Source of the DNA: Chloroflexota bacterium
Lineage (GTDB): Bacteria; Chloroflexota; Dehalococcoidia; DSTF01; RBG-16-68-14
Length of the DNA: 64,000 nucleotides
Assembly: GCA_003228685.1 (NCBI GenBank)
Contig: QIFC01000079.1
Span: 1-64,000, forward strand
Direction of reading: 5' to 3'
The notes below the pieces were generated by a model. That model was not told where the DNA came from. It saw only the letters and a program-made list of their open reading frames with translations, and did not search any database. Both the position numbers and the translations under genes were made by a program. Numbering within the stretch: position 1 is the stretch's first letter; every line of letters begins with the position of its first letter. Below, in pieces: positions 4,435 through 23,036 of this stretch.

Positions 4435-4478
4435 CGCGACTCCAGCTTAACGTGAGGCGCGTCAGATATGAAAGCGTC

Positions 4479-4507
4479 GTAGGGGCAGGACTGAGACCTG
4501 CCCCTAC
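4479..4507. repeat. Perfect palindrome GTAGGGGCAGG-ACTGAGA-CCTGCCCCTAC
   Basis: 11+7+11 nt inverted repeat. Confidence 0.85.
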
Positions 4508-4556
4508 CGCGTTGCGCAGCCAAGACAACGCCCCTAACCAGGATCCCAACATGTAG

Positions 4557-4577
4557 GGGAGGCCTTCGAGGCCTCCC
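4557..4577. repeat. Perfect palindrome GGGAGGCCT-TCG-AGGCCTCCC
   Basis: 9+3+9 nt inverted repeat preceded by GTAGG. Confidence 0.85.
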
Positions 4578-4636
4578 GCCTGGCTTCGTCATCGCCCGCC
4601 GGCCGGAACATGCCGACGTGTCACTACGAGGGGCCA

Positions 4637-6341: not shown

Positions 6342-6434
6342 CTCGCCCTCTCCCCAGGGTTGCGCTAAACCGGGCAATTGGTAGTAGATCGCCCCTCTCC
6401 CGCGAGCGGGAGAGGGGATGGGGGAGAGGGCGAG
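6342..6434. repeat. Nested palindromic element (CTCGCCCTCTCCCC…GGGGAGAGGGCGAG enclosing CCCCTCTCCCGC-GA-GCGGGAGAGGGG)
   Basis: Outer 14-bp arms 6342-6355/6421-6434; inner 12+2+12 at 6392-6417. Confidence 0.85.
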
Positions 6435-12392: not shown

Positions 12393-13153
<761 letters not shown>

Positions 13154-13264
13154 ATTCTTCTCTCGCTCTCTACTCGTACTATGCAGCGATGGGAGCCATT
13201 GACTCCCTCGGAGGAGCCTTCGCTCCCAGTCGCAATGCTAGCTGGTCGAAGCTAGGGCCCGCTT

Positions 13265-13273
13265 AATATAGCA
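13265..13273 (-). promoter_or_regulatory. Candidate extended -10 (TGCTATATT) for the rpsB cluster
   Basis: TGC-TATATT on the minus strand about 110 bp upstream of rpsB; no clear -35. Confidence 0.4.
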
Positions 13274-13277
13274 TGCG

Positions 13278-13386
13278 GCTAGCCTTTGGGCTAGCTTGCA
13301 GAGGCTTCGCTTCTGCGCCATTATGGCGACCTGACGGTCGCCTTGAAAAACGCGGCTGTCGCTAACGCGACCGCTTCGCGTTCTTC
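13278..13386. repeat. Hairpin array 1 (four consecutive hairpins, TT-linked)
   Basis: GCTAGCC-TTTG-GGCTAGC (13278-13295), TT, GCAGAGG-CTTCG-CTTCTGC (13298-13316), GGCGACC-TGAC-GGTCGCC (13325-13342), TT, GAAAAACGCG…CGCGTTCTTC (13345-13386). Confidence 0.85.
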
Positions 13387-13435: not shown

Positions 13436-13492
13436 GCCCCTCTCCCACGAGTGGGAGAGGCCTGCCTGTAGGGGGATGGGAGTGAGGGCGAG
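13436..13492. repeat. Second copy of the CCCTCTCCC-type palindromic element
   Basis: CCTCTCCCAC-GA-GTGGGAGAGG (13439-13460) then GGGGGATGGGAGTGAGGGCGAG; compare 6392-6434. Confidence 0.75.
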
Positions 13493-14350: not shown

Positions 14351-14433
14351 GGCGACCTGACGGTCGCCGGCTACTGCTTCGGCAGTAGCTTGAAGAACGC
14401 GGCTGTCGCTGACGCGACCGCGTCGCGTTCTTC
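14351..14433. repeat. Hairpin array 2
   Basis: GGCGACC-TGAC-GGTCGCC (14351-14368), GCTACTGC-TTCG-GCAGTAGC (14370-14389), TT, GAAGAACGCG…CGCGTTCTTC (14392-14433). Confidence 0.85.
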
Positions 14434-15382: not shown

Positions 15383-15424
15383 GCAGAACGCGCAGCGTTC
15401 TGCAAGCTGAAGCTTCGCTTCAGC
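15383..15424. repeat. Hairpin array 3 (two hairpins, AA linker), overlapping the permease stop codon
   Basis: GCAGAACGC-GCA-GCGTTCTGC (15383-15403), AA, GCTGAAGC-TTC-GCTTCAGC (15406-15424). Confidence 0.8.
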
Positions 15425-16334
15425 CCTTGACCGACCCGCCGAACAGGCCTCGCACCAGATAGCGCTGGAAGGCGACGACGAGGAGCAGCATCGGCAGGAA
15501 GGCCATGATCGTGCCCGCGAAGGCCACGTTGATGCGGCTGATGTTCGCCGCCTCCGCCGCGATGCCGATCTGCACGGTGCGCATGTTCGGGTCGTTCGTC
15601 ACCAGGAGCGGCCAGAGATACTGGTTCCAGGCCTGCAGGAAGGCGAAGATCGCCAGCGTCGCGAGCGCGCCCCGCCCCAGCGGCACGACCACGTAGAGCA
15701 GCGTTCGCAGATGCCCATAACCGTCCATCTCGGCGGCGTCCAGCAGCTCGCGCGGGATCGTCATGAAGTACTGCCTGAGCAGGAACGTCCCAAACCCGGT
15801 AGCCAGGAACGGCGCGACCAGGCCCGGATAGCCGTCGATCCAGCGGATCTGCGTCCAGCTCAGCCACGCCTGCTCCGTAAAATGGGCATCCAGCCACTGC
15901 ATCGTCTGGAAGTTGGGGATGATGGACACCTCCAGTGGCACCATCATCGTGGCCAGGAACACGATAAAGAGGACGTTGCGCCCCGGAAACTTCAAGAACG
16001 CGAACGCATAGGCGGAGAGCGTTGCCGTGATGAGCTGGGCCAGCGTGATCACGGCCGATACCACGAAACTGTTGAACAGGTACCGCCCCACGGGCGTATC
16101 GGAGACTCCCTCGCCGCTCGCGAAGTAGTTGTCCCACTGCCAGAACGACGGCCAGAGACTGGGCGCGTCCTCCTTCAAGAACTCGGTGAGCGGGTGGAGG
16201 CTGAACACGACCGTCACATAGAGCGGGAACATCAGTATCGCGGAGCAGACGACCAGCAGCGCGTACGAAGGCATCCTCCGCAGCCAGCGCCGTACCAGGC
16301 TCGGTGAACGCGACGCGCTAGCGACAGCCGTCAT
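15420..16334 (-). CDS. ABC transporter permease (MalG/UgpE-like)
   Basis: EMDGYGHLRTLLYVVVPLGRGALATLAIFAFLQAWNQYLWPLL EAA loop; start set to MTAVAS because the upstream extension to 16412 is translated hairpin repeat. Confidence 0.85.
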   Translation of the reverse strand: MTAVASASRSPSLVRRWLRRMPSYALLVVCSAILMFPLYVTVVFSLHPLTEFLKEDAPSLWPSFWQWDNYFASGEGVSDTPVGRYLFNSFVVSAVITLAQLITATLSAYAFAFLKFPGRNVLFIVFLATMMVPLEVSIIPNFQTMQWLDAHFTEQAWLSWTQIRWIDGYPGLVAPFLATGFGTFLLRQYFMTIPRELLDAAEMDGYGHLRTLLYVVVPLGRGALATLAIFAFLQAWNQYLWPLLVTNDPNMRTVQIGIAAEAANISRINVAFAGTIMAFLPMLLLVVAFQRYLVRGLFGGSVKG

Positions 16335-16447
16335 TGGTAGGACGCCCTCTCTCGCTGCATTCGCCTTGAAGAACGCGGCTGTCGCTGCGGCGACAGCTTC
16401 GCGTTCTTCCAAGTCGTCGCTTTAGCGACGACCGTCATCGGTAGAAG
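16319..16447. repeat. Hairpin array 4 flanked by diverged direct repeats at the permease/permease junction
   Basis: Direct repeats TAGCGACAGCCGTCATTGGTAG (16319-16340) and TAGCGACGACCGTCATCGGTAG (16423-16444), 19/22 identical; hairpins GAAGAACGCG…CGCGTTCTTC (16368-16409) and GTCGTCGC-TTTA-GCGACGAC (16413-16432). Confidence 0.8.
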
Positions 16448-19509: not shown

Positions 19510-20901
19510 TTACACACAGCTGTGGTTGAACTGCAAAATCACTCCCAGTATGTCGTTCGCCAGGTCGATCACGCCGTCCGGCGGCCCCATGTTCCAGGTG
19601 TTGGCCCCGATCTGTGGCCCGCGGTCGAACCGCACGTCGTACTCTGGCTCAGTGCCGAGCGGCGCGAAGCGCACGATCACCCCTAAGATGTCGTTCGCCA
19701 GGTCGATCACGCCGTCCCGCGTGAGCGACTGGCCGGGGCCGTACACGTCGTAGTATTCGTTCGGGTCCTTGTAGTCGCGCCGTCCGCCCTGTGTCTCGTC
19801 AGGGCCGTTCTCGTGCTCGTCTGGGCAGCCGTCGCCGTCGGTGTCGCCTGGCTTGGGGAGCTTGTTCGGCACCAATTTTTCGGCCTCCGTGCAGTAAGTG
19901 TAAAGGGAATCGACAAACTGCACCTCAAGCCCGAACTGTGTCCGGATGTTTACCAGAGCCTCGACGGGTGTGCCCGCCATGGGGAGATAGCACGTCAGCG
20001 CCGGCGACCCTGTTATACCGGCCCCGTCTTTCAGCGAGGGAACGCACACCATCATTCTGATGCCAAAGATAGATATCGTCTCAGATATGAACTGGTTGGT
20101 GATGTCCACGTCTTGGCCAGGGCCCACGGTGGTTACACTTTCGTAGCAGGCATAATAGAGGGACGAACCCGGGGGACTCCCGTCCTTCGTCGCCTGCACG
20201 CACAATTTAGTGAGCGGACCGATGACATGCGCAGCCACGCCATACTGGTCCTCTACGTCAACCGTCACGTCGGGGTCGACCGGGGTGGTGGCGTTGAAGC
20301 AGCGCATCGTAGGCAGAAATGGGATGCCGTCACCGTTCTTTCCGGTGGGCGGACACAGGGAGTATCCTCCATCGACGGTAACGAGCGCGCCATCGGGCAT
20401 GAACTGGTTCTCGACGTTCACGGACACGCCGAGAGAGGGCCCGCCGGCTATGTAGCACGTGTAGTTCGCCGGCGGCGGCACCTTGATGCTACCGGTGAAG
20501 GTCCCACTTCCAGGAGGAGTCGTTGAGAATGTTCCGTTCATCGTGGAGCCGTCCGTGTTTCCGGTAGACGTTACAGACAGGTTCCCAAATATGCCGCCGG
20601 TAAGCAGACCGTCGAGCGAGAAGTCGCCCGTTGCTTTGGTTATGGAACCGGTGTATGGACCGCTGCCGGAAGACACGCACGACGCATCTGCGGTGAGCGA
20701 GCTTCCTGTCTGCACGATGTTTAACGAACAGGTATCACCTCCGGCGGTCCCTGAGAGCGACACATTCCACTTGCCCGTCATGTCGATGGCGGCTTCGGCC
20801 GTCCTGTCCTGATGCAATGGCCCGCCCAGCATCAATATGAGCGCCGCAAACAGCGCGGCCACCAGTGCCCACTTCCCGTAGCGATTTGCGTTAGTAAACA
20901 T
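19510..20901 (-). CDS. Secreted protein with TSP3-like Ca-binding stretch and two dockerin-like motifs
   Basis: Signal-like N-terminus; GDTDGDGCPDEHENGPDET; DGVIDLANDILGVIVRF and DGVIDLANDILGVILQF. Confidence 0.7.
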   Translation of the reverse strand: MFTNANRYGKWALVAALFAALILMLGGPLHQDRTAEAAIDMTGKWNVSLSGTAGGDTCSLNIVQTGSSLTADASCVSSGSGPYTGSITKATGDFSLDGLLTGGIFGNLSVTSTGNTDGSTMNGTFSTTPPGSGTFTGSIKVPPPANYTCYIAGGPSLGVSVNVENQFMPDGALVTVDGGYSLCPPTGKNGDGIPFLPTMRCFNATTPVDPDVTVDVEDQYGVAAHVIGPLTKLCVQATKDGSPPGSSLYYACYESVTTVGPGQDVDITNQFISETISIFGIRMMVCVPSLKDGAGITGSPALTCYLPMAGTPVEALVNIRTQFGLEVQFVDSLYTYCTEAEKLVPNKLPKPGDTDGDGCPDEHENGPDETQGGRRDYKDPNEYYDVYGPGQSLTRDGVIDLANDILGVIVRFAPLGTEPEYDVRFDRGPQIGANTWNMGPPDGVIDLANDILGVILQFNHSCV

Positions 20902-22986: not shown

Positions 22987-23036
22987 GGAGTTGCGCGGCA
23001 ACTCCAAGCTGCCCGTCAGGGCAGCCGCTTCCGGCT
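22987..23036. repeat. Hairpin array 5
   Basis: GGAGTTGC-GCG-GCAACTCC (22987-23005), AA, GCTGCCC-GTCA-GGGCAGC (23008-23025), AGCCG-CTTC-CGGCT (23023-23036). Confidence 0.8.

Follow-up and report, generated by a model that had tools for sequence, protein, structure and literature searches.

A genus-restricted double-hairpin repeat beside the rpsB-tsf cluster of a Chloroflexota bacterium

Hairpin copies in the window

The stretch of DNA analysed here, in the following called the window, comprises 64,000 nt of contig QIFC01000079.1 of a Chloroflexota bacterium, and coordinates refer to it unless another locus is named. Beside rpsB, positions 13278-13386 hold an array of hairpins. It adjoins a candidate extended -10 (TGcTATATT, minus strand, 13264-13276) of the rpsB-tsf cluster and, read on the rpsB strand, lies directly upstream of it, as a preliminary description had stated; a similar sequence occurs in G002, one of two congeners (G001 and G002) used for comparison.

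That description had seen an array of four consecutive hairpins. All four are present in the sequence, but they resolve into two copies of a double hairpin (DH), which is the actual unit. The serial copy (13278-13316, plus strand) consists of hairpin A (13278-13295, GCTAGCC-TTTG-GGCTAGC), a TT linker (13296-13297) and hairpin B (13298-13316, GCAGAGGC-TTC-GCTTCTGC, 8 bp with one G.T pair), and is matched by our covariance model R1, described below, with 41.3 bits (E 6.5e-9). In the composite copy (13325-13386, plus strand), hairpin A (13325-13342, GGCGACC-TGAC-GGTCGCC) and TT are followed by B arms (13345-13354 and 13377-13386, GAAAAACGCG...CGCGTTCTTC), which enclose a second A-type hairpin (13355-13374, GCTGTCGC-TAAC-GCGACCGC, one mismatch) and another TT. 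The fourth hairpin is thus nested, its ‘loop’ being another hairpin plus TT. A 42-nt part of the composite copy recurs at 14392 and 16368.

None of 2000 dinucleotide shuffles of the array gap reached, within 112 nt, the array's count of perfect hairpins (stem of at least 7 bp, loop of 3-5); relative to shuffles, the folding z of the array is -6.4. When the 109-bp array served as query in a DNA search, it returned only two strong copies besides itself, and Rfam gave no match in the window at gathering thresholds. Palindromes of the type CCCCTCTCCCG-CGAG-CGGGAGAGGGG form another dispersed repeat class, found at 6392-6417, at 13439-13460 just beside the array, and at L020:3405.

The same grammar had been noted in four other gaps, at 14351, 15383, 16368 and 22987, and all four places match. 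The composite copy at 14351-14433 (plus strand, R1 37.6 bits) carries two A hairpins (14351-14368 and 14370-14389), TT and B arms (14392-14401 and 14424-14433) around a hairpin at 14402-14421. Two serial copies, both on the minus strand and both found by the scan, lie at 15383-15424 (GCTGAAGC.gaa.GCTTCAGC-TT-GCAGAACGC.tgc.GCGTTCTGC; R1 61.8 bits, high by construction as this copy is among the seeds of the model) and at 22987-23025 (GCTGCCC.tgac.GGGCAGC-TT-GGAGTTGC.cgc.GCAACTCC; R1 31.6 bits). At 16368-16409 (plus strand) the copy is nested, with B arms GAAGAACGCG/CGCGTTCTTC around the A hairpin GCTGTCGC.tgcg.GCGACAGC and then TT. A single hairpin at 16413-16432 (plus strand, GTCGTCGC.ttta.GCGACGAC) differs from the aligned G001 hairpin by two compensated pair changes. 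For a DH remnant at 16306-16330, the aligned place in G001 and G002 has a better preserved copy, an apparent case of decay in this genome. A repeated C-terminal motif, DGVIDLANDILGVILQFNHSC, is common to a set of paralogous genes at 19510-20901 and at L025, L090, L114 and L138, and a DH often lies just past their stop codon.

Anatomy, copy number and distribution

The DH unit measures about 40 bp and consists of hairpin A (GCT…AGC), TT or TTG, and hairpin B. On the strand that reads TT (the TT strand), the common plan is G...A(C)G-[GCTGACC tgc GGTCAGC]-TT(G)-[ GCAGAAGC ttc GCTTCTGC ]-nGG, with stems starting G-C, C-G, loops mostly of 3 nt, a TT(G) linker and a GG tail. The flank profile shows G at -7, A at -3, C at -2 and G at -1. 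On the TT strand, 57 of 79 triloops of A and 69 of 97 of B (126/176 together) are TNC, corresponding to GNA on the opposite strand, and a C-G pair closes the loop in 95% of hairpins (105/111 for A, 106/111 for B). C-GNA-G loops belong to a class of unusually stable DNA mini-hairpins.

These features modify the initial picture in several respects. The stems are not unrelated, since A is almost always GCT...AGC and C-G closes both loops, and the hairpins do not form free arrays: two types occur in the fixed order A-TT(G)-B. The idea of a class defined by structure and not by primary sequence holds insofar as pairing is kept while stem letters vary, but structure alone overstates the case in view of the sequence anchors, namely G-1, G-7, GCT...AGC in A, the TT(G) linker, the C-G closing pair and the strand-specific GNA/TNC loops.

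The nested form, in which an A hairpin and TT lie within the loop of B, was found in 5 strict copies in all loci versus 0 in shuffled gaps. We infer that an A module was inserted at the TTC loop of B. A circular permutation of the serial form was rejected, because the order of the B arms is unchanged in nested copies, the purine-rich one leading, and the A-TT module is contained in the B loop. Local tandem duplications taking in whole DH elements were seen at L134:12368-12416 and 12475-12523, L146:9105-9206 and L111:657-774. At L047:15888-16108, a short hairpin unit (TAGCGCAACGGGCGCTRYCGRT) is repeated in tandem, about nine times here versus about two in G001.

Copy number was studied in a sample of 1.264 Mb of this genome, consisting of the window and 60 stretches of 20 kb, with genes called by a home-made codon-model caller. 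The preliminary description had proposed a comparison with shuffled intergenic DNA, and the observed frequency is far above this control: gaps hold 259 perfect hairpins (stem at least 7, loop 3-6) versus 42±6 in dinucleotide shuffles, and 7 adjacent perfect-hairpin pairs linked by exactly TT/AA versus 0. A wider scan for adjacent hairpin pairs with any linker found 32 in 159 kb of gaps versus 0-1 per shuffle, and 1.09 Mb of coding DNA gave 10; linkers were mostly AA, CAA or AAA, i.e. TT, TTG or TTT on the opposite strand. Perfect hairpins in coding DNA, counted in the first 464 kb, showed only a small excess (195 vs 156).

The covariance model R1 was built from eight seeds with perfect Watson-Crick stems, and decayed or G.T-rich copies are therefore under-counted. 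At E<=1 it gave 84 matches in the 1.264 Mb sample. This less biased sample has 57 distinct copies, and extrapolation from it implies about 160 copies for the whole assembly. Stretches picked for containing copies gave 57 matches in a further 318 kb of the same genome and 118 in 529 kb of the two congeners. Whole-genome counts at E<=1e-3, which are lower bounds from 150 scored candidates per genome, were at least 97 in this genome and at least 45 and at least 80 in the two congeners. For 15 genomes from the rest of the order, the scored candidates included one single match at E<=1e-3, and 37 genomes outside the genus showed 0-10 weak matches at E<=1. Exact matching, which tells little about variant copies, located the 25-mer archetype among 85,488 species only in JADFPV01 (Chloroflexi bacterium isolate B76T1B5, probably the assembly of G002), and a DH 24-mer in no IMG/VR contig. 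Altogether, DH is a real, genus-restricted double-hairpin repeat.

Stem changes, occupied sites and placement

Compensatory changes in relatives had been named as a further check, and they were found. In the 57 R1 matches outside the seed set, 96.9% of stem cells pair versus 72% after shuffling, 14 of 16 stem pairs are changed on both sides among copies, and the covariation score is 0.49 versus 0.12 in shuffles and at most 0.06 for slid partners; this alignment was fitted to R1 and is thus biased towards the model. Comparison between aligned loci of different species is a more independent test. Here, 26 stem pairs had changed, a count that is approximate as part of the more distant pairs may be independent copies and one change can recur across comparisons, and 15 of them were Watson-Crick double changes, where about 3 double changes are expected if the two sides change independently. 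Of the others, 3 had changed on both sides and 3 on one side to give G.T, and in 5 the pairing was broken. Between this genome and G001, for example, GCTAGCCC/GGGCTAGC became GCTAGTCC/GGACTAGC at L047:16606, while at L018:18803 GGCCACC/GGTGGCC became GCCCACC/GGTGGGC and AGAGATCGC/GCGATCTCT became GGAGATCGC/GCGATCTCC. By manual count in the aligned loci, about half of the unique double changes are transversion pairs, for which no route leads through a G.T step. Change per site was 0.14 in stems, 0.20 in flanks and 0.27 in loops.

Occupied and empty sites were found between the species. In the rpsB gap, this genome has the DH beside the extended -10 (TTAATATAGCATGC, element, GCCATTATGGCGA) where G002 is continuous (TTAATATACCACGC joined to GCCATTATGGCGA), and G002 in turn carries a DH in the rpsB leader, at a place that is empty in this genome; boundaries in this gap were read by eye from printed sequences, and automatic alignment did not resolve them. 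At L048:17859 a DH follows right after the stop codon (GTG TAG G, then GCTGC...) and the site is empty in the 83%-identical G001. A single hairpin at L142:996 corresponds to a double one in G002, the nested copy at L033:15540 is missing from both congeners, and further candidate sites of this kind were found. Owing to the rapid divergence of gaps, few of the empty sites can be placed to the exact base; a few of them, with boundaries that are not base-exact, show no evident target duplication. Overall, such sites between sister species suggest a mobile element recognised mostly by shape; judged from this species comparison, loss could account for part of the pattern.

Among 224 distinct copies in the loci searched, the centre falls inside a called gene in 13, most of those at gene ends. 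Convergent gaps contain 1.48 copies per kb, co-directional ones 0.63-0.82 and divergent ones 0.39, and in co-directional gaps 90 of 125 copies lie closer to the 3' end of the upstream gene. With copies turned to TT orientation, the ends of genes concentrate at positions -3 to +6 relative to hairpin A, and the stop codon is often within GCTGA, GCTAG or GCTAA or immediately precedes G[GCT.

Orientation showed no bias towards the transcription strand (67 vs 58) and no significant relation to the majority gene strand (p 0.12). It follows GC skew, calculated with elements masked, in 153 of 224 copies (p 0.0004 by flipping whole loci, which are not fully independent as some are orthologous) and in 102 of 126 at an absolute skew of at least 0.03. 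The orientation of GTAG REPs in this DNA likewise follows skew, with a sign opposite to DH (p 0.001). G excess marks the leading strand in most bacteria and is assumed here as a marker of fork direction. If this assumption holds, the TT strand is the lagging-strand template, which is the polarity expected for IS200/IS605-like single-strand uptake.

Known elements and possible mechanisms

The preliminary description had not recognised a described family, and indeed no published account of DH was found in the open-access papers searched; related kinds, such as REPs and mitochondrial double-hairpin elements, are described. As far as these papers show, DH is a new family of the REP / double-hairpin kind. 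In mitochondria, double-hairpin elements (DHE) are known from Allomyces, and repetitive hairpin-forming elements from sponges (PMC2800124, citing Paquin et al. 2000). DH resembles them as a tandem pair of short hairpins that is optional between close relatives; target duplication is not reported for DHE. The likeness is one of form, homology not being implied, and DH differs in lying on a bacterial chromosome, in many copies, with hypervariable stems, strand-specific loops and skew orientation.

In a wide sense DH is REP-like, being palindromic (20-40 bp), intergenic, of high copy number and close to gene 3' ends. With GTAG REPs and REPtrons it shares short intergenic palindromes at gene 3' ends (PMC3733652, PMC8266576), and strand-specific recognition of single strands is documented for REPs (same sources). 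Unlike GTAG REPs, DH joins two different hairpins by TT, its flank consensus does not show an unpaired GTAG at the palindrome end, and it does not flank a linked RAYT (Y1, HUH) gene. CGTC REPs, including Rickettsia RPE-4/-6, are likewise palindromes without a dedicated transposase, but they have a CGTC tag, a single hairpin, A-T first and second pairs, 4-5 nt loops and a CCA tail (PMC3733652), from which the two hairpins of DH depart in stem starts, loops and tail. Ends of IS200/IS605 elements (IS608/ISDra2) prefer the lagging-strand template (PMC6006769). These elements and their miniature derivatives have a hairpin at each end and insertion 3' of a short target, features that DH, with its flank preference, may share, whereas only TT(G) separates the DH hairpins, and no cleavage site or cognate TnpA was found for DH. 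REPINs are two inverted REPs of conserved sequence. In DH, hairpins of two types follow each other in direct order; the likeness lies in paired short palindromes that make up one unit, mobile in REPINs (PMC3116915) and probably so in DH.

Y1 transposase genes number four in this genome, with one match each in G001 and G002. GTAG hairpins lie close to most of these matches, and beside the six no convincing DH was detected, the best being one weak match of 13.7 bits. Linkage of DH to RAYT genes was rejected, these genes having GTAG REPs nearby instead. GTAG-tagged REP hairpins constitute a separate family (4475-4580 in the window; L067, L069, L070 and L156), some of them beside Y1/RAYT genes.

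The anatomy, copy number, paired changes, occupied and empty sites and biases of DH are observed, and transposition itself, a single-strand route and recognition by shape are inferred. At a probability of roughly 0.55, we take DH to be a genus-restricted, non-autonomous REP-like mobile repeat that acts as folded single-stranded DNA at replication forks. It is unlikely that DH acts at the RNA level, as a transcript 3'-end stabiliser, processing site or terminator, with compensation reflecting selection on RNA folding. Such a role would agree with the concentration of copies near gene 3' ends, with their higher density in convergent than in divergent gaps and with stems that stay paired; however, orientation is indifferent to transcription (58 vs 67) and tracks GC skew, the loop preference is strand-specific yet unrelated to transcription, and REPs, which are mobile DNA, have a similar 3' location (PMC3733652). 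A terminator in particular was rejected, U-tract and strand bias both being absent from DH.

Less likely again is a purely mutational origin, in which template switching at the fork makes and perfects small palindromes in unconstrained DNA without transposition. Template switching has been reported to create and maintain hairpins (PMC8794818), and double changes, including transversion pairs without intermediates, and the dependence on skew would suit it; the fixed A-TT-B order, the GCT...AGC anchors, G-7/-1, the unit of about 40 bp and the restriction to one genus are left unexplained. Template switching probably does contribute to the evolution of the stems. Behind both, we regard as improbable that DH copies serve as binding sites for some protein specific to the genus, be it nucleoid, gyrase-like or replication-related, and have spread by other means: high copy number, intergenic placement and a skew orientation resembling some replication-linked motifs speak for it, but the sites are not conserved between species and hypervariable stems make double-stranded sequence recognition unlikely. 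Membership of the GTAG or CGTC REP superfamily, with mobilisation by resident RAYT enzymes, appears the least probable; RAYT genes and GTAG REPs are present in these genomes and the DH flank, taken along the AA strand, is similar to C(G)T(C), but the GTAG tag is absent, the CGTC traits listed above (PMC3733652) are not seen, and the RAYT genes have no adjoining DH.

As a mobile repeat, DH would be recognised in its folded single-stranded state while replication forks expose it, probably on the lagging-strand template, and a trans-acting enzyme that reads mainly hairpin geometry and loop would insert it. The letters of a stem would drift by whole base pairs, since both arms are altered by hairpin-templated correction or recopying and copies that no longer pair lose recognition. 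Surviving copies would gather just past stop codons and between convergent genes, because insertion there harms least. A more tentative possibility is a modular element read by hairpin shape, in which an A hairpin goes in next to TT and, where it enters the exposed TTC loop of an existing B hairpin, gives the nested form, and folded single strands are carried by an undescribed enzyme of the genus.

Repeat finders that rely on sequence break up or overlook the family, because its copies have little primary sequence in common. At least in form, DH is a bacterial counterpart of the mitochondrial double-hairpin elements. The pair changes in its stems probably stem from a DNA-level process and not from RNA function, which calls for caution in covariation-based RNA discovery. 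Finally, with DH lying beside the rpsB promoter in one species and in the rpsB leader in another, any effect on an essential operon becomes testable.
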